Assembly: GCF_000485595.1 (NCBI RefSeq)
Contig: NW_014577613.1
Location: 29,981-59,517, forward strand
Direction of reading: 5' to 3'
Source: Priapulus caudatus
Lineage: Eukaryota > Priapulida > Priapulimorpha > Priapulimorphida > Priapulidae
Length of the DNA stretch: 29,537 nt
Under the pieces are notes generated by a model, which worked only from the letters and a program-made list of their open reading frames with translations, did not search any database and was not told where the DNA came from. This document shows, one piece after another, positions 19,598-29,537 of the stretch; position 1 is the first letter of the stretch, and each line of letters starts with the position of its first letter. The position numbers and the translations under genes were made by a program.

Positions 19598-21596
19598 TTA
19601 CTGCATAGCTTGACAGGAAGGGCAGTACCACTGTCCTTTTGGCACCCTATCAATTCTTAGAGACTTCATGTGAAACCAACTTATTGTGCAGTCATCATTA
19701 TCACAGCCAATCAGTTGGCCCCCTTGAATTTCTTCCCTGCAATAGCACCAGGGCCCAGTTTCACCATCAGATTCTTTTTCTTCTGCAATATCAACTCACA
19801 GACCTGATATACCATTTGCCAAGAATTTCTGATAGTATGCCAACACGATGAAACTTGCTAGCCTTAGCTAGAACTTCTTCCCAGAATGTAACATCTGGGT
19901 AAACACGCTGAATGTGCAGATCCCGTTCCGTCCAAACAACAAAGTCACAGTATTCTGTGGTGATATGCGTTCACAAGCACTAGCGTAGTGATACGCCACA
20001 ATATAGTGCGAGGCGTAAACCGGTGATCACATGGGCTGGAAAGCATTCCATGTATAGCCATCTTTGAATGCTAATAAAGAGCTTGACACCGCTCCATGGA
20101 AATGCCTGTCTTTGGCTTATAATAGCTATACCAATACTATTACATATTCAACATCAGTTATAAATATCTGAGCCTGTACTTGATAGTAGTAGGCATGCTT
20201 CTGATCCAGTGAAATTATACCATCACTCTCAGTCAGACAGCTGTTTGTTTGCCCCACTGCTTCTTGTATTGTGGAACCTTTAGAACAAAATGGACACTTG
20301 ATCTCACAGCACCCTCTACCGCAGCAGTCACAATCAACCAGTCCATCTGGTGAAGCACCAAGATGTGGCCACTGAGGATTTATATTCAAACCACTGTCAG
20401 ACACAACAAAGTGTTCATGTGTTTCACACATTTCTTTCTCATACGCTTCCCTTGCAGTCTTTTCATGCGTGCAACCCCATCTGGTCGCAGTAGAAGAGAA
20501 TTTGTGAGCTTCTGGATAACATATGCTCTTTATTAGACTCCTTGAGGGTTCGGCTGGGTTTGTATGGCAGGCTGCTTTCAACCTGGAAGCGGTAATTCTG
20601 CCAGCACGCTGACTGAACCAAACTTTAGACTGTGCTTGTTGTCTAGTTTCATTTTCGACTGCCTTACATTCCTCTTCTGTCACTGACAGGGAAACTCTCT
20701 CACAGGCACTCAATAAATCCACATAGTTCATGGACATATATTGTTCATTGTGAAGTGTGGTCAATGGTTTGGGGACACCTCTTATCTCTTTGGGCACAAA
20801 TTTCTCATTGTAAGGTGCAATGAGAGACAGTACAGCAGAGTTTCCACCAGAAGCAGCAATACCTGAGTAAAATGTATTTATTTCCTCAGAAGATGGGGCT
20901 ACCAGCTTTGTTCGTTTTCTTTTCCTTGTAGGACTACTTAGTTGACTGGCTGTTCCCACAGAACAAAGTGTTGTGTGCCTTTTTTTGGCCGAGGTAAAAT
21001 CAACATCACTAACTGGCAGATAAGGCACTTTCTTTACGTGTGCTGGCAACCATTTACTTTTTTTCTTCAGTACATGTTCTGGATTTGCTTAACCTCGAAC
21101 CAGCTTCAGCAGCAAAAAGTAAAGCACCAATGTGCGAACATGCTTCGCTCAATCCCGCCATACAATCACAATGCGCGAGTAAAACATCGCCATTCTTCTC
21201 ACTTACAAACCACGGTTTGAGCGGTGTATCACGAGCTCGTTGAGAGTGATTTACTCGGGCATGGACGAGTACTTTGCCATCTTTCACTGGTTTGGTAAGT
21301 AGACTACCGACCCAGCCGGAAACGAAGAAGTTGTACGCGTCTAAACTCTTGTAGGCCTTCATTTGTGCGTTGGTTGCCCACGGAGTTTGTAGCACAAGGT
21401 AGTTAACGATGTCGGGATATTCTATCGTCGGTAAAGATGCCAAATCCTCCATAAACTCGGACGGCTTTAGCGTGTATGGATCAAATCCACAAATTTATAC
21501 TTTTTGTCTGAATCTTGACTTGGCAGAGGGCTCCAGAGAATCAAAATACTTGGATAAAGTCGCAGAGCCGTTTCTGTTCGCATTGTAACACGCCAT
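19598..21596 (-). pseudogene. SWIM zinc finger - YqaJ nuclease - PHD finger protein, broken
   Basis: Start ATG at 21596 (MACYNANRNG). Parts in order: an N-terminal region; a SWIM finger (CDC, then ACSHIGALLF, about 21140); a Ser/Lys-rich linker; and a YqaJ-type PD-(D/E)xK nuclease (about 20630-19860) with QRAGRITASR, GASPDGLVDC, the catalytic EIKCP and the YYYQVQAQI helix. It ends with a PHD finger (WCYC, IGCDNDDC, WFHM, YCPSC) and a TAA at 19600-19598. Breaks: an in-frame TAA near 21493, an extra T in the T7 run at 21058-21064, a 189-bp LTR at 19956-20144, and a frameshift near 19815. YqaJ is the phage-lambda exonuclease fold. Such genes accompany transposases in ISL2EU-type elements, to my knowledge. 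Whether the PHD belongs to the same protein is inferred from strand and 60-base spacing. Confidence 0.75.
19956..20144 (+). mobile_element. 189-bp solo LTR inserted in the YqaJ frame
   Basis: On the plus strand it begins tgtggtgatatgcg and ends ccaatactattaca (TG...CA). It is flanked by a perfect 5-bp duplication, tattc (19951-19955 and 20145-20149). It contains aataaa (about 20071). Removing it with one duplication copy rejoins the host frame exactly: TDVEY continues as CDFVVW. The tgtggtgatat start recalls Gypsy LTRs; this is a short, TRIM-sized LTR, clearly a different family from the one at 17742. Confidence 0.85.
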
Positions 21597-21689: not shown

Positions 21690-22687
21690 ATGAGCCATGT
21701 TATACCGCTCCTCGGCTGCTGTTTGGACGTTTGTTAGTGGAACCATTAGCCAGGACTTTAATGGATAGCCAGTAGGCGTTCACTGTCACTGAATTTGCGT
21801 GATAGGATGAAGCTATCGTGTGTGCTACCTGGTTAGCGAGCTACGACATGTGATGGTCATGTTGGCATCACAGATAGCCTGTACGTTCTTCGAATGATAG
21901 TTCTTCCGATTTATGTAGACATAGTCCATGTCGCCAGCAGGAGCACGAATAGCTACGTGAGTGCAGTCGATCGCACCGAGGACACGGGGAAAACCTGAAA
22001 TCTGGCTGAATTCATTCATCACTTTTGTTCTCTCGGTCTGCATCTGAGGGAATTTGATCGTTGTTCTTAATTTTTCTCCGATGATCACGTACACAGCTCG
22101 ATGCAAACAATGACAAGCTGTCACCTGCGATATTCTGTGCAGTTCACCCATACCCCATTGGAAGGAACTAGATGCAAGTAGGCTTAGTGTCACTGCCAAC
22201 TGAGTTACTGCTGGAGTTGCCATGCTTTGCTTTTTTGGAAAAAAACGGTTTATCAACAAACAGTATTTAAAAAAAATAAACATTGCTAATATCGCTAACA
22301 GCATTTAAACTGAATGCACTCTATTTTAAATTTAATGTTCATTATATATCTGCCTTTGAAGTGTACGCGTTTCAATGCAATCATTAATGTAGGAGAGCTC
22401 AGTATATAATTATACTCATTGTAGTTCTGCAGGATCACCAATTTAGTATTTCATGATAATATTATATTTATCCTAAACAGATTAGTAATTGAAACAAACC
22501 TTGTTGGTAGCTCTATTAACGGGCAAACTTTATTTGCCAAATCCAACAATGCATGCTGAGGAAATCTGATGCGATTGAACAGCGTGTGGTTCGGCAAATC
22601 GAATGGATCCTGCCGATCTGTAAATACACGCTCTCTGCAAATTGCTCGTCTCTGTACTATTGCTGCCGCTGCTGCAAACGCTGCCAT
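21690..22687 (-). pseudogene. PIF/Harbinger (HARBI1-like) transposase, broken
   Basis: Exon 1 is 22687-22500 (MAAFAAAAAIVQRRAIC ... DLPNHTLFNRIRFPQHALLDL); a 275-base GT-AG intron; exon 2 starts at 22224 (SMATPAVTQLAVTL). Exon 2 has the family's FQWGMGELHRISQ block, then FSQISGFPRVLGAIDCTHV with the first catalytic Asp, and NRKNYHSKNVQ. At about 21858 a one-base shift moves it to the frame NVVAR, stop, PGSTHDSFIL, where TAA replaces the usual Trp. An internal deletion then joins to AAEERYNMAHSRSRSI near 21700, so the segment holding the second catalytic Asp is missing. It lies directly upstream of the YqaJ gene and downstream of the MADF gene, all on one strand. Confidence 0.75.
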
Positions 22688-23036: not shown

Positions 23037-23820
23037 CTAATTGGCTTGATGAATTGCACTTAAGCGGGACGGCATGCCTAGGCCCCGCTTACGCCAGCCC
23101 GCCGTGCTGAGAAGCAATGATAAATTTGGCCCCAGGTGTTTCCAGATCCAAGCCACCCTGTACTTCAAGACTGGATGGCCATTGCCGCTCTTCTTATACT
23201 CTTTCTTGATACGCCCGTAGGAGGACCGCATACTCTTGTACCACCTGTCTATCCTTGCCCCTGCAACAACAAAAAACATAGAAAAACACATTTTACACTG
23301 GAATATACCACATTTTATCCATAAAATGGTACAAATATTAACAGGGTTAAGTGAGTGTACAAATGAAAGATATGAAATATACACTCACCACTCAAACCAA
23401 TTGTCACCCCAAATTCCGCGAACATCCTGTCCTTCTTTGCCTTGTTTTTGAAGTCTTTGGTGGCCTGGTTGTAGATAATCTCGTTATCTTCCACCCAGGC
23501 CACGATCTGCTCCTCGGAGATGTCTTCTGGGCGGGCGATGTTGATGACAGAGCCGCTGTCATCGTCGGGCTGTTGCTCTTTGCCTATGCCTTGCCGCCTG
23601 CAGCCTTCTTCGCTCTCTTGGGGACAGCGCCACCGCCAGTGCCTGCAGCCTCCTCACCCTCTGCCTCGGCAGCCTCAGTCTCAAGTACAACATCAGCAGG
23701 TTCACCGGCAGTCACTGAGTCGTCATCCGTGTCATCACCTTGGGGTATGGGCGCCACTGTCTGGTACACATCAGCCACTGTTACCACCTTACTCTTGTTG
23801 GTTTTTTTCTTGGAAGGCAT
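23037..23820 (-). CDS. MADF (Myb/SANT-like) DNA-binding protein, two exons
   Basis: Exon 1 is 23820-23389 and exon 2 is 23260-23037, joined by a GTGAGT...TTGCAG intron of 128 bases. From ATG 23820: a Lys-rich start (MPSKKKTNKSK), an acidic Asp/Glu/Ala-rich stretch, then the MADF-like domain SEEQIVAWVEDNEIIYNQ ... AEFGVTIGLSG/ARIDRWYKSMRSSYGRI ... VAWIWKHLGP, ending at the TAG 23039-23037. PIF/Harbinger elements need a Myb/MADF-type partner for nuclear import and DNA binding of the transposase, which fits its place just upstream of one. A one-base shift is needed near 23592 between the acidic stretch and the domain, so the gene is broken or misread. The frame is also open upstream to 23979, so the start is uncertain. 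Confidence 0.65.
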
Positions 23821-24064: not shown

Positions 24065-25260
24065 GTAACCATTACCAGCATATCGTCCATATTACCTCGC
24101 GCATGCGCATTGACACCTTAATCGCTACACGCAGTGGCAATGGGTTTTCATAATAGGAATGTTCTATAGATAGATATAGTTCATTTGTGTGAAGGCAATG
24201 TGTAGTTGCGTATAGCACATTTGTTTCAACATATACCAAGCTATTTACTGGCGAAATTTCGATAGAATAGTCAAATTATTTATGGTGTCCCTAAATAAGA
24301 TTAAATTTTGTGATTTGAAGCGATAATTTCGAGCTTTTTAGAATAATTTGGCGTGAGGTCCAAGTTCGAAGCGGGGCCGTTAATAAATGGCTAAACAAAG
24401 TGAAGTTGCGTATAGCTAAGTGTAGATGGCGATACCTTCGTTGTGCAGATTCTAGCTTTGCAAATCATTCAGATAATTTTTAATGGTGTCCATGGGGGGC
24501 TAAAAATGACACAAAAACCAAAATTGTCAAGATTTTCTGAATCATATTAAAGAAGTGTTTTCTTTACATATTTAAATGGGGGAGTAATTTACCATGTATA
24601 TATAGTTTAGCCATGTTATAACTACTGGTATGTGCAACTACCTAAAGGGGAAAGGGCCTACAAACCTAGGGCAGTACTGGTTAGGCCCTGTGATTTATTC
24701 AGTTTATTTCTGTGCTGGGTTGGGGTCAAATTTGGCAGATTTTCTGAATAATAATATAGGGAACTTGTTCTTAGTTGTCTGGGCCTAGGCTAACTTAGTA
24801 TTTTCTATACAATGAGGGGCATAACCAGGGTCCATTACATGCTGGGAATTTTTGAAGGGGTAAATAAATTATGATGTCGGGTAATCTTTTATTGGGATCA
24901 TCTTTTCTGGATAACTGCAGGACCAGGGGCCATGCATAATGATGCCAGAAAAAAAACTACATATACCAAGGAACTGAGAAGATATAAATTAAAATATATA
25001 CTTTGTTTTATTTATTTCATGAAAAACATAACATATTTACAGAAATACCCATTAATTTGTGAACAGCAGTATGTGGACAGATAAGGCTAAGAATTCAAAC
25101 TTTCAGCACCCTTCACACTTGACTACACAATTTTGTATGCAATAAAACATTAAAACAGAACCACATAATACAAATGTCATACATCAAATAAAATTCATCA
25201 CAATTCATGCAATAATAACTCTTTTCTGGCATCACAACTTTCAGTCAAAGTTAAAAACAT
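24065..25260. other. Gene-free stretch with a diverged 200-base tandem repeat
   Basis: agttgcgtatagc is exact at 24204-24216 and 24404-24416 (spacing 200), and a following word ending in atggtgtcc recurs at about 24282-24290 and 24483-24491 (spacing 201), so 24200-24600 is an old two-copy tandem. A related reverse word, gtgcaactac, is at 24633-24642. The part next to 25260 is AT-rich and likely the 3' flank of the RAG1-like gene, with minus-strand AATAAA words near 25006-25016. Confidence 0.55.
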
Positions 25261-25265
25261 GCATT

Positions 25266-27759
25266 TTATAGTTTGCTCCGAAGTAAGTCTCGTAATTTTT
25301 CAAGACTTCTAAATTTAGTAGCAACACCAATTTCTTTTAGTTTTGCCTTCAAGTCACCAACACTCATATCGTCTACAGCAATACCAATGTCATCTGCCTC
25401 AGTTTCTCGTGCTGGGCGTTTTCGATTTTCAAAAATATCTTTCTGCCAGTATTCCAACTTCCTTTTCGAGTACTCTCGGGGCACCCTTTTTTGGTCAATT
25501 AAGTGATTTTGGCGCCATGTTGTCTGTATAACAGAAGCACATGCTTCTATCCTATTTGAATGCTGCTTATGTATGCATTTCACCACATCATTCAATTTCT
25601 CCATGCCCTGGGCACTAAATTGTTTGATCCCAAGGTGTAGCATCGACAAATTTGGAACATGATGGACAAGTATATGCATGTATGGAGTCACCCGTGCTAT
25701 TTCGTAACCCTTCCTTTTCCCAGCCAGAGTCAGGAACAGCTCAATCCAATCTTTTGCCATGTTGAACAGATGTTTCTCAGTCACCTCTGCTTCATTTTGG
25801 AAAGAGGAGGTAATTGCAAAATACACCTGAGCAAATTTTTTCCCAAATTTCAATTACATTTATTTCAGTATTTTGGTGCAGCACATGCTTTTCTCTGAGT
25901 ATTTGGGGTAATTTTCTCAACAGGTTTTTTTTCTCTTCTCCCATTAGGCTTGAAAACTCTAAACTCCCAGTGCCTTTACCATTTTTGTCCCTGGTCTCCC
26001 ACACTTTGAAACTTACACCGGCTTCTCTTATAGCATTTACCAAACCATTCAAATGAGATTTTTCATTAGCTAAAGATTTAGCCACGGCCCCAATTTTTAC
26101 TTTGTCATCACAGTCACTTACATCTTGAATCAAATTTTCAAGAAGCCGGTCTGTGATTCTCAACATTAAATGCAATTCATCAATAATAATATTCTCAGGT
26201 GGCAAATTTACTAGTGGTTTATGCTTACACCCATACACTTGTTTATCAGCACATTTATGCATGTCTTCATTGGTACGTTTGAAGGATGGATCGCTATAGA
26301 AATCTTCTTGCTTCGACATATCCCCTCTATCATTTTTATGCACCTTGCAATATATACAAGCATGATTTCCAGTGGCACCACTCATACCAAGAACCATTAA
26401 AAGGAATTTGTAATCTGCAGCTAAGAAAACCTTTACAGGGAATTCCTCGCCATCAACTTCAATAGTACCACGGTTATGTAGAGTATTTATGGACTTGAAT
26501 ACATTGCAAAATGATTTCCTATATAAGTCATATGATTCCTGAGCTTTTACAACAGCCACAGCATGGTGCTGGTGACAATTAAAGCTAGTATCAGAACTAG
26601 ACTTATCAGAGAACATGGAAAAACTCATCACACACATACCAGCATTTCTTGATAAACTGGTGCCATCACCACAAAATTTCAGGCAAAATGTGGGTTTTTC
26701 ATCACCAGGGTGTTTATTTTGTAGGGATGCCTTGGCAGCAAAGATTACCTCTTCTTCAACACAGATTTCTGCACCTTCTACTGAGCCAGGGGTTCTTTGA
26801 ACATGACAACATGTGTTCATATCTGAGCGCAATTGCTTTATTAGATATGCCTTTGGCAAACCATTGCATATAACTGACAATTCGTGGTAACATGCATCAG
26901 ATACATAAAACCTATATAGTATGAATAGCACCTGTTTCAACTTTTCTTTTTCATTTTCAGACAGTTTGTGGTATGAAACACCATGTTGAGTCCCACTGGA
27001 GTCAGTAACAGTTAAACTGTCTAAACTGAGACCAAATGCCTTTAGAAACCAGACTGCACATCCAGCCCTGGATTTTATTTCCTTCAATACATTCCACTGT
27101 TGTGAACGACTAGATTTGGCAAAATCTTTCCTAGTTCTTTGAGTACCTAGAGAAATTCCACAAAGATTCTTAATATATTGTTGCAGTTGATCATTTGTTT
27201 CCATTAAAATTTTGTTTTTCTCCTGCTCATTTTCAAGTAAATCCTTTTCACAATCTTTATTTAGTTTTAAATCTGCAATTTCCCTTTGAAGTTTAATTAT
27301 TTCTGACTCTGTGGCCTCAACTTTTTCTTTCATTGAACTAACCTGAACTCGTAATTCCTGGCATTCTTTTTTTATCTCATTATTTTCTCTATTGATTGCG
27401 CTAACAGATACCAAATCAGCCTGTGTAATATTCAAAGTGAAAAGTTTGTTCAAAAGAGTCACACGGCTTCGACCTTTAACTTTACTGATCTTTTTTGAAA
27501 TAATCTGACATTGTCTACGAAGGTTCTGTGACAAGCGGTCTACTGATGGATCAAGAAATAATTTATAATTTGAATCCAAGAAACTACCTAGGAGTATGGA
27601 ATAGAGAGATGGTTTTGAGCCAGCCTCGTTATACCAATCTCGACAAACAGAATAGGGGATTTTGGCAGCGAATATAATATTGGACTGTTTAAGACTAAGA
27701 TTGTATTTATATTTTGGACTGCTATGAGTTTCAATAAATGGTTTGCTTAAAGTAGGCAT
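25266..27759 (-). CDS. RAG1-like DDE transposase with coiled coil and SAP-like end
   Basis: ATG at 27759 (context AAAATGC); stop at 25266; about 830 codons with one frameshift in the T6 run 25836-25841. Parts: N-terminal 115 residues unrecognised; a coiled coil at about 120-200; a catalytic core; a basic stretch; and a C-terminal SAP-like motif (VGDLKAKLKEIGV). Core residues: Asp in CGDGTS (codon 26667), Asp in AADYKFLL (26415), CIYC (26358, 26349), IDELHLML (26181), YMHILVHHVP (His 25676 and 25661), and Glu in QGMEKLND (25601). Asp-to-Cys 19, Cys-Cys 3, His-His 5 and His-to-Glu 20 equal RAG1's D708-C727-C730 and H937-H942-E962 as I know them. It lacks RING and nonamer-binding domains. It should be a nuclear cut-and-paste recombinase. 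The chromodomain gene lies just upstream. The single homopolymer shift suggests a recent copy or a read error. Similar unnamed proteins are common in cnidarians, as I recall. Confidence 0.75.
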
Positions 27760-27874
27760 TTTGGAAAACAATGACTAAGCATTAACATTAAACATTAATT
27801 CACATAGTGAATAATATCAGTCTTGTACCTTTATCAGTGTTCGGAAGCACAATGGTAATGTAAAATATACATAT

Positions 27875-29274
27875 TTATAATTTATAGGCATCTGTACAGC
27901 ACCGCATAAAAAGTTTTTCAATCGGGATCGTAGGCAATGGCACTAAAACTCCAGAGTCCTCATCACGGATATAGTTTGTCCTTGAAAACTGCACCACTGG
28001 TCTAATTAAGATTGGGAATACCAAACAATGGCCATATCCTTTATTATCAACTGAATAGTCCCACCCATCAGGAAGTCCAAGAGCGGCAAAGGCATCCCGG
28101 CTATAGGCACGATATCCTTTTACTGTTGCCGGCGTGTTTGGTTTATCACCAAATAGTGCACGATAAACATCCAATGGCAGAGAAACTTCGAATGGATGTT
28201 GCTGTGCACCGTTCCCACGAAGGCGTTTGTGTAGACTGGTGAAAATAGTGTGCCGTGCCGCTTGCATTCGATCATCCGTCACCGTTGGGCAATCATAATT
28301 TTCGATCAAATCTCTCGTCAAATTGGCATGTGCCTCCCATGATGCCGCAGACAATGGCCATCCTTCCCACTCCACAAGGTATTGGTAGGAGTTGTCCTGA
28401 AATAATTAAAAAATACTGTTAAAATCCTAACAAATTAAATAAAACTGTTTTAACACGTTCAGTGCTAGCCACGTGTGGAGACGTGATAGCGAAAAAACGC
28501 ATCAGTGCTAGCCACGTGTGGAGACGTGACAGCGAAAAAAATCGCAAAAAAATAAAATAAAATTGTTATTTTCAGTAGATGGCAGTACTTAAATACGTAG
28601 AAATTAAACTGGTGTTAGCTTTAAACATTAGTCTCACTATGTATTGCAAAATCTGTACAAAAGGATCTGCTTTCAGTCTATAAATAAGGATTTTTAGTGA
28701 CGAGCTAAATTCCAAAGCGTGCGTGCGGATAAGATGGCGGCAGCTGGTAGTAAGCGTAAAAGTTTTACTGTGGAGGAAGTCGTTGAATTATGTGCTGATC
28801 CTGACAGAGATTTATCTTGTTTTGAGTCTGATAGTAAGTATAAATGTTTATATAATATTTTGTTGAAATAAATACCGTTTGTGATTAAATTTTTCACTTC
28901 TGTATGGCAACGAATAATCCTAGGCTATGGCCTATGCCTTAATTAGGCTATAGCCTATGCCTTAGGCTTCTGATGGGCAGATTAAAGTGGATTTAAATCA
29001 AATTAAATTTTCCAGAAAATGCACTACACGCAATGCATTACAGAATGTACACAATATACACGGCCCGATCATGCCAGAAAGAAAAAAACAAATTAAAACC
29101 TACCTGGTCAGATTTCTTTTTGGAAATTACACGTAAAATAGGCCACAGTTGTTCGTCTATATTGTTCACTACATTTTTCACTGGTTGTTTCTTTAATATC
29201 GGTAAATTTTGAGCAATTAAAGCCTTGAAATCAATCTTTTTCCCCCGAGTTCGTCTATCTATGGGAGCCGCCAT
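27875..29274 (-). CDS. Chromodomain protein, two exons
   Basis: Exon 1 is 29274-29104 and exon 2 is 28396-27875; the intron has GTAGGT and TTTCAG ends and phase 0. This gives 230 residues with no breaks. The ATG at 29274 has a good context (ACAATGG); the open frame runs further upstream without another ATG. The chromodomain spans about residues 43-95 across the splice: LWPILRVISKKKSDQ, then SYQYLVEWEGWPLSAASWE and a closing helix (NLTRDLIENY). Its Trp/Tyr residues could form a methyl-lysine cage, so it may bind methylated histone H3. The remaining 135 residues (DVYRALFGD ... RDEDSGVLVPLPTIPIEKLF) are not recognised. The stop lies about 115 bases before the RAG1-like start codon, on the same strand, so the two probably belong to one element. 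The intron holds a piggyBac fragment. Confidence 0.75.
28461..28543. repeat. Two 43-base direct repeats at the piggyBac end
   Basis: Copies start at 28461 and 28504 (agtgctagccacgtgtggag, then acgtga and t/c agcgaaaaaa). Only one substitution and small A-run differences separate them. Each contains the internal palindrome cacgtg. Subterminal repeats of this kind are transposase-binding sites in many piggyBac-like elements. Confidence 0.85.
28679..28688 (+). promoter_or_regulatory. TATA box of the piggyBac-like gene
   Basis: tataaataag, 46 bases ahead of the ATG of the first coding exon. That leaves a leader of about 20 bases if transcription starts 25-30 bases downstream. It is placed between the subterminal repeats and the coding exon, as expected for an element promoter. 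Confidence 0.5.
28734..28833 (+). pseudogene. piggyBac-like transposase, first coding exon only
   Basis: ATG at 28734 (AAGATGG). The protein starts MAAAGSKRKSF, then TVEEVVELCADPDRDLSCFESDS, the basic-then-acidic N-terminus typical of piggyBac-derived transposases. The exon ends with a strong donor, A/GTAAGTA, at 28833 in phase 1, and no later exon is present in the window. Translation past the donor meets a stop within about 12 codons. Confidence 0.55.
28921..28968. repeat. Short tandem repeat TAGGCTATGGCCTATGCCTTAAT
   Basis: Two copies with near-palindromic content (taggctatggcctatgcctta, then taggctatagcctatgcctta). It lies inside the chromodomain intron, past the piggyBac exon. Confidence 0.8.
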
Positions 29275-29537
29275 TGTTGCGATCTGATTGGCCAATCCTT
29301 GCACGTGACCACTATCGCAGCGCCGCCTTCAGATTTCTAAATTGGACAGATTGTTGGTAATGTCCTGAAAGAAAAGTAAGTCAGGATGCACAAAATATTT
29401 GCGTAACGGCAAGCAAGAGAGCAAGTGCTTTAATTAAAAAATCCTAGCTTTCATTCGTATACTGCTGATGAAGTACAAATAACACGTTGAAATTAATATT
29501 TATGAAAATAATTTAAATAAATGAATAAATATAAATA
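29275..29537. other. Upstream flank of the chromodomain gene
   Basis: Non-coding sequence containing ccaatcagatc and cacgtgacc upstream of the minus-strand ATG, plausible promoter words. No transposon end was recognised; if the chromodomain and RAG1-like genes form one element, its right end lies here or beyond the window. Confidence 0.4.

Follow-up and report, generated by a model that had tools for sequence, protein, structure and literature searches.

The window analysed here is a stretch of 29,537 nucleotides of the Priapulus caudatus genome (NW_014577613.1, positions 29,981 to 59,517), and its main subject is a broken transposase gene at 25266-27759 on the minus strand. We think it very probable that the window holds one damaged copy of a DNA transposon that is low in copy number and was recently mobile, and whose transposase has a RAG1-type core and belongs to the CMCT clade (EnSpm-Mirage-Chapaev-Transib-RAG1); no Pfam model for the family was found. 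The original prediction, made from the DNA letters, had described a single protein with the complete catalytic and zinc-binding geometry of RAG1, and had placed it on a divergent branch of the RAG1/Transib superfamily. The parts of the gene are given below. The RAG1 residue numbers D600, D708, C727, C730, H937, H942 and E962 are those which we take to apply to the mouse protein. ORF stands for open reading frame.

25795..27759, minus strand: ORF A, 655 aa, with the N-terminal domain, the coiled coil and, as far as the frame break, the RAG1-like core
25266..25853, minus strand, other frame: ORF B, 195 aa, with the ZnH2-like H-x4-H, the catalytic Glu, the C-terminal domain and the SAP-like tail
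25834..25853, minus strand: frame break, the approximate point where homology switches from ORF A to ORF B; several relatives and a second copy on contig C1716 are uninterrupted here
27424..27738, minus strand: ORF A residues 8-112, predicted to form a compact N-terminal domain, with high confidence beginning at about residue 31
27160..27405, minus strand: predicted long helix or coiled coil (ORF A residues 119-200, from structure prediction)
26665..26667, minus strand: first catalytic Asp (RAG1 D600 position; codon reading and alignment)
26413..26415, minus strand: second catalytic Asp (RAG1 D708 position; codon reading and alignment)
26347..26358, minus strand: C-x2-C, first half of the zinc site (RAG1 C727/C730 position; codon reading and alignment)
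26170..26172, minus strand: the DELH His, which aligns with the IDATH His of RAG1-like (RAG1L) proteins (RAG1 H795; the 'LH' motif of CMC transposases; alignment)
25659..25676, minus strand: H-x4-H, second half of the zinc site (RAG1 H937/H942 position; codon reading and alignment)
25599..25601, minus strand: catalytic Glu (RAG1 E962 position; codon reading and alignment)
25317..25373, minus strand: SAP-like motif

The minus-strand codons beginning at 26667, 26415, 26358, 26349, 25676, 25661 and 25601 read D, D, C, C, H, H and E, which bears out the seven residues on which the original prediction was built. The first four and the DELH motif are in ORF A, the two His and the Glu in ORF B; as the two ORFs overlap in different frames, the proposed single protein holds for its residues but not for one open frame. 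Relatives align with ORF A as far as about 25834-25843 and with ORF B from about 25850. Several of them cross the 25834-25853 point in a single frame, thus the window copy has a frame break, and owing to the broken frame it is probably inactive. Programmed frameshifting at this point was rejected, given the uninterrupted frame of several relatives and of the C1716 copy there.

Seventeen relatives were found in the first search and 45 in the profile search, about 8,000 candidates being scored in each. None of them carries a precomputed Pfam domain, and four of the 45, annotated as 'uncharacterized' or 'hypothetical', come from Dendronephthya gigantea, Paramuricea clavata, Nematostella vectensis and Acropora cervicornis. 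There was no relative among 69 and 46 pattern matches in viral and prokaryote contigs, respectively. A literature search, with protein letters and Repbase outside its range, found no paper naming the family. Spacings were counted in a 40-row family alignment that included both window pieces. The predicted distances proved to be invariant in the rows holding both positions: 19 from the second Asp to the first Cys (34/34), 5 from His to His (28/28) and 20 from His to Glu (25/25). Both His are present in 27 rows, P0006 having A/V instead within a divergent tail, and the Glu itself is present in 23. The second Asp is replaced in P0026 (R) and P0039 (I), two rows that are gapped or divergent at this position. 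The two Asp are 79-84 residues apart in the family and 108 apart in mouse RAG1 by the numbering that we presume. Because residues and spacings are conserved across the family, the motif set exceeds chance. In one relative, P0015, the segment around the first Asp seemingly occurs in tandem repeats that replace the normal N-terminus.

When the predicted model was compared with known structures, RAG1 was the best match, although identity between the family and RAG1 or RAG1L is 12-15% in the structural alignments. The match begins mostly at RAG1 458-480, as numbered in the structure entries, and covers the core from the DNA-binding/dimerisation region to the C-terminal domain. In the predicted model of the relative P0003, D285 is in the strand 277-288, D366 follows the strand 355-365 and E634 is in the helix 631-646. 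This placement of the acidic residues in the model is that of an RNase H fold, and it supports the view that the window protein is a DDE transposase of the RNase H type which shares the core fold of RAG1; this comparison with the RAG1 core, suggested with the original prediction, came out strongly in its favour. The long helix agrees with the N-terminal coiled coil that had been proposed. The proposed C-terminal SAP-like motif was recovered as a weak match (E 0.16 for the window, 0.0023 for the family consensus), below the Pfam cut-off in both cases. No EnSpm, Mirage or Chapaev entry appeared in the structural match lists, which is no evidence against these groups, and because there was no CMC structure among the PDB results, the structural ranking cannot decide the branch.

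Profiles containing the coiled coil matched RAG1 in the PDB at E 0.12-0.71 amid many coiled-coil matches; a core profile of ten family rows was used afterwards against all PDB sequences. It gave 17 matches at E<=10, all but one of them (16/17) RAG1 or RAG1L. The top match, ProtoRAG, had a whole-sequence E of 0.0013, its best single stretch reaching 0.078, and its alignment included the H-x4-H and the Glu. For mouse RAG1 the second-Asp region and both Cys were aligned in a second stretch, which was insignificant. HzTransib was not matched in any of the PDB profile searches by sequence. We also collected and aligned 12 RAG1L proteins. Between them and the family hhalign gave E-values of 0.0017 and 0.001, each from a single comparison, over 292 and 264 collinear columns that extend from about the second Asp to past the Glu, the first Asp lying outside both alignments. 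Decoy tests were run with alignment rows of up to 250 residues left out. Nine RAG1L proteins took the top nine places for the family profile (12 RAG1L, 1,200 shuffled and 12 reversed sequences); two others were interspersed with shuffles and one fell outside the best 25 rows. In the reverse test the top six were family members (49 family, 980 shuffled and 49 reversed proteins). When 23 family and 11 RAG1L rows were aligned by MAFFT without guidance (P0026, both window pieces, family rows <380 and RAG1L rows <350 residues left out, which kept 11 of the 12 RAG1L), both Asp, both Cys, the His of DELH/IDATH, both later His and the Glu fell in shared columns. The exceptions among RAG1L rows were an M and a Y; those among family rows, all at the Glu, were two gaps, one N and one A. 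The predicted IDELHL block is present between the named residues, with its His in register with that of IDATH; the corresponding H795 of mouse RAG1 is an active-site residue according to an excerpt of PMC7204232.

The core would then consist of a DNA-binding and pre-RNase H region, an RNase H domain with the D-D-E triad, and a C2H2 zinc insertion formed from C-x2-C and H-x4-H, together with the equivalent of H795; by analogy with RAG1, the role of the zinc site would be to keep the insertion domain stable. The protein may act as a dimer on the terminal repeats, held partly by the coiled coil and the core. The D-D-E triad with two metal ions would first nick the DNA and then form a hairpin, as in RAG and Transib, after which the excised element would be joined to a new site.

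Copies were sought with a protein query in the genome assembly (385 Mb, 2,952 contigs), the counts being lower bounds. At least four matches were found: the window copy, two adjoining matches on C1716, which make up the second copy, and one on C52. C1716:18697-21699 (L005) is 99.47% identical to window positions 24070-27074, the 3' part of the element. The two copies diverge abruptly at 24070, which we therefore take as an element end; at 27074 the C1716 copy meets an assembly gap and TA repeats. The C1716 copy is intact at the window's frame break, yet has a frame change of its own and stops. C52:528704-528892 (L004, L007) is an N-terminal fragment, 41% identical over query positions 2-64, which lies in an open frame of 167 codons and may come from a diverged relative. 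Inside the window tblastn found no further family copy, and an apparent inverted second copy near 23046 was rejected, being a single 18-bp match. The ends and the gene upstream of the transposase are as follows; TSD and TIR denote target site duplication and terminal inverted repeat.

24070..24095, plus strand: element terminus on the transposase 3' side, CATTACCAGC..., at the sharp junction common to the second copy
29337..29362, minus strand: candidate opposite TIR, CATTACCAACA..., with no TSD and no confirmation from a second copy
27875..28396, minus strand: chromodomain ORF and candidate exon 2, which stops 115 bp upstream of where the transposase starts
29104..29274, minus strand: candidate exon 1 of the chromodomain gene, with ATG at 29274 and donor after 29104 (splice-site reading)

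With one end fixed at 24070, the best partner was 29362 (score 14, the next 11), with no TSD. All of 60 shuffles stayed at or below 6, but 2 of 60 real-sequence controls reached 14, and we regard 29362 as a suggestive second end. If it is real, the element spans 24070-29362 and includes the chromodomain gene. Chapaev ends are recognised in part by a 3-4 bp TSD, and those of RAG1/Transib elements by a heptamer-like CAC(A/T)GTG with a 5-bp TSD. Searching for TIRs from the window alone gave nothing convincing among the 25 longest of 43 inverted pairs. Pairs with 12 or more of 16 matches numbered 143, against 56-97 in five shuffles; the best score in the pair scan, 14, was equalled in three of the five, and none of the pairs began with CA and had a TSD of 3 or more. 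In the chromodomain gene, which likely has one intron as judged from the sequence, the frame 27875-28405 matches Pfam Chromo at E 6.9e-07. Possibly the element carries this gene as its second one. The candidate intron of the chromodomain gene contains the motif cacgtctccacacgtggctagcactga twice (about 28457-28550, minus strand).

Several points weigh against a recently mobile transposon with a RAG1-type core. The best single stretches in the three core-profile matches listed reach E-values of 0.017-0.078 and no better; the profile-profile comparison proposed with the original prediction did align RAG1L collinearly, but at an hhalign probability of just 15% and 22%; and a shuffled sequence took rank seven in the reverse decoy test. 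The Glu is replaced in P0013 (N) and P0030 (A). AlphaFold was trained on solved structures, presumably including RAG1. Both core-covering copies in the assembly are broken, no TSD was found at the ends tried, and the second TIR is a candidate. One junction of the C1716 copy is an assembly gap, so the case for transposition rests on one end, and the copies may reflect segmental duplication.

As to the branch, an excerpt of PMC12730594 describes CMCT transposases as having a DDE triad, C(2)C and H(3-4)H between the second D and the E, and a third conserved His, and together with an excerpt of PMC4079192 it indicates that this set spans the whole clade, Chapaev and EnSpm included. The family has these motifs, and on their evidence we assign the window transposase to CMCT. 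Because the set is common to all CMCT, the proposed place on the RAG1/Transib branch does not follow from it; what stands of that proposal is the predicted RAG1 core fold and the residues in register with RAG1L. The family is probably either allied to Chapaev or a lineage of its own. By the excerpt of PMC12730594, the DDE, C(2)C and H(3-4)H are features that EnSpm/CACTA, Mirage, Plavaka, ESTA and Lanisha have too, and no match to their Pfam models was listed, the scan of members covering the best 25 of 67 Pfam families.

The alternative that survives best, with a little less than an even chance in our estimate, is that the family belongs to the already known Chapaev (or Chapaev3) superfamily and simply lacks annotation in protein databases. 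C(2)C, LH and H(4)H, called characteristic of Chapaev in an excerpt of PMC4079192, are all present. The sole transposase-like Pfam match is DUF1280 (PF06918), around the first Asp, and an excerpt of PMC3985635 describes DUF1280 as Chapaev transposase and puts it with RAG1 in one clade. The match is, however, below the Pfam cut-off of 25 (family consensus 16.6 bits, E 0.0063; P0017 14.4 bits, E 0.03), it was listed for one of nine single proteins, and it is absent among the best 25 of 67 Pfam families for family members; the profile searches put the protein firmly in no other superfamily, either. Both groups occur in cnidarians: Chapaev is known in the starlet sea anemone (PMC4411706) and DUF1280 genes have been counted in Hydra and Nematostella (PMC7642931), as excerpts of these papers state, and the window family is found in Nematostella and corals. 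In the excerpt of PMC4411706, Chapaev and Chapaev3 count as clades within a broader Transib superfamily and have an N-terminal Chapa domain and in some a RING. No RING or zinc-finger N-terminus was found among the Pfam matches of the window ORFs at E<=1, and no RING among the best 25 of 67 Pfam families of family members. The mapped end opens with CATTACC, in contrast to the 'invariable' CAC of Chapaev (PMC4079192, excerpt).

We consider it unlikely that the family is a divergent branch of the RAG1/Transib lineage proper. The 16 RAG1 and RAG1L sequences among the 17 PDB matches, the structural ranking and the H-H-E block, which resembles RAG1L at the motif level, would fit this, but with no CMC structure among the PDB results the ranking was unfair, and HzTransib (6pqx) is missing from the sequence matches. 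A tree was built from 24 family rows (the window ORF A piece among them) and 11 RAG1L rows, with no Transib or CMC. In it the window protein clusters with P0003 and P0002 (96/92); the tree check was thus made with RAG1L only, and very long branches, about 3 changes per column, divide the family from it. The CATTACC end is unlike a CACAGTG-type heptamer. The nonamer-binding domain, RING and zinc-finger N-terminus of RAG1 and of RAG1L such as ProtoRAG were not found among the Pfam matches of the window ORFs, the protein having a predicted coiled coil and a weak SAP-like tail instead, and no linked RAG2L (kelch) gene was found among the 11 window ORFs scanned. Doubtful, too, is an undescribed lineage with the RAG1 fold outside both Transib/RAG1 and Chapaev, in which the transposase was paired with a chromodomain protein, a chromatin-reading partner acquired in parallel to the recruitment of RAG2 (kelch-PHD). 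The remaining explanation, a host gene domesticated from such a transposase, would suit the very few copies among the matches listed, the lack of a TSD and the adjacent chromodomain gene on the same strand, but is made very improbable by the broken frame of the window copy, the stops in the second copy and the near-identical DNA with a sharp edge at another locus. What we prefer is a wider form of the original prediction: a CMCT transposase with a RAG1-type core, of an apparently unnamed family that is perhaps allied to Chapaev.

Elsewhere in the window, all on the minus strand, 21825-22304 is a transposase piece (DDE_Tnp_4, E 1.6e-06), which we take to be Harbinger/HARBI1-like. A YqaJ-type exonuclease domain lies at 20126-21088 (E 2.4e-25), while no Pfam family matched the ORF adjoining it, 21054-21494, at E<=0.01. 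A PHD finger ORF is at 19598-19795 (E 3.7e-05).

With a complete RAG1 core at 12-15% identity, occurring in corals and a sea anemone, the family would widen the known sequence range of this fold. It could serve as root or outgroup when the origin of RAG/Transib is traced, be it from within the Chapaev-CACTA transposons or from beside them. Should the chromodomain gene be part of the element, it would be a parallel to the chromatin-reading partner of RAG.
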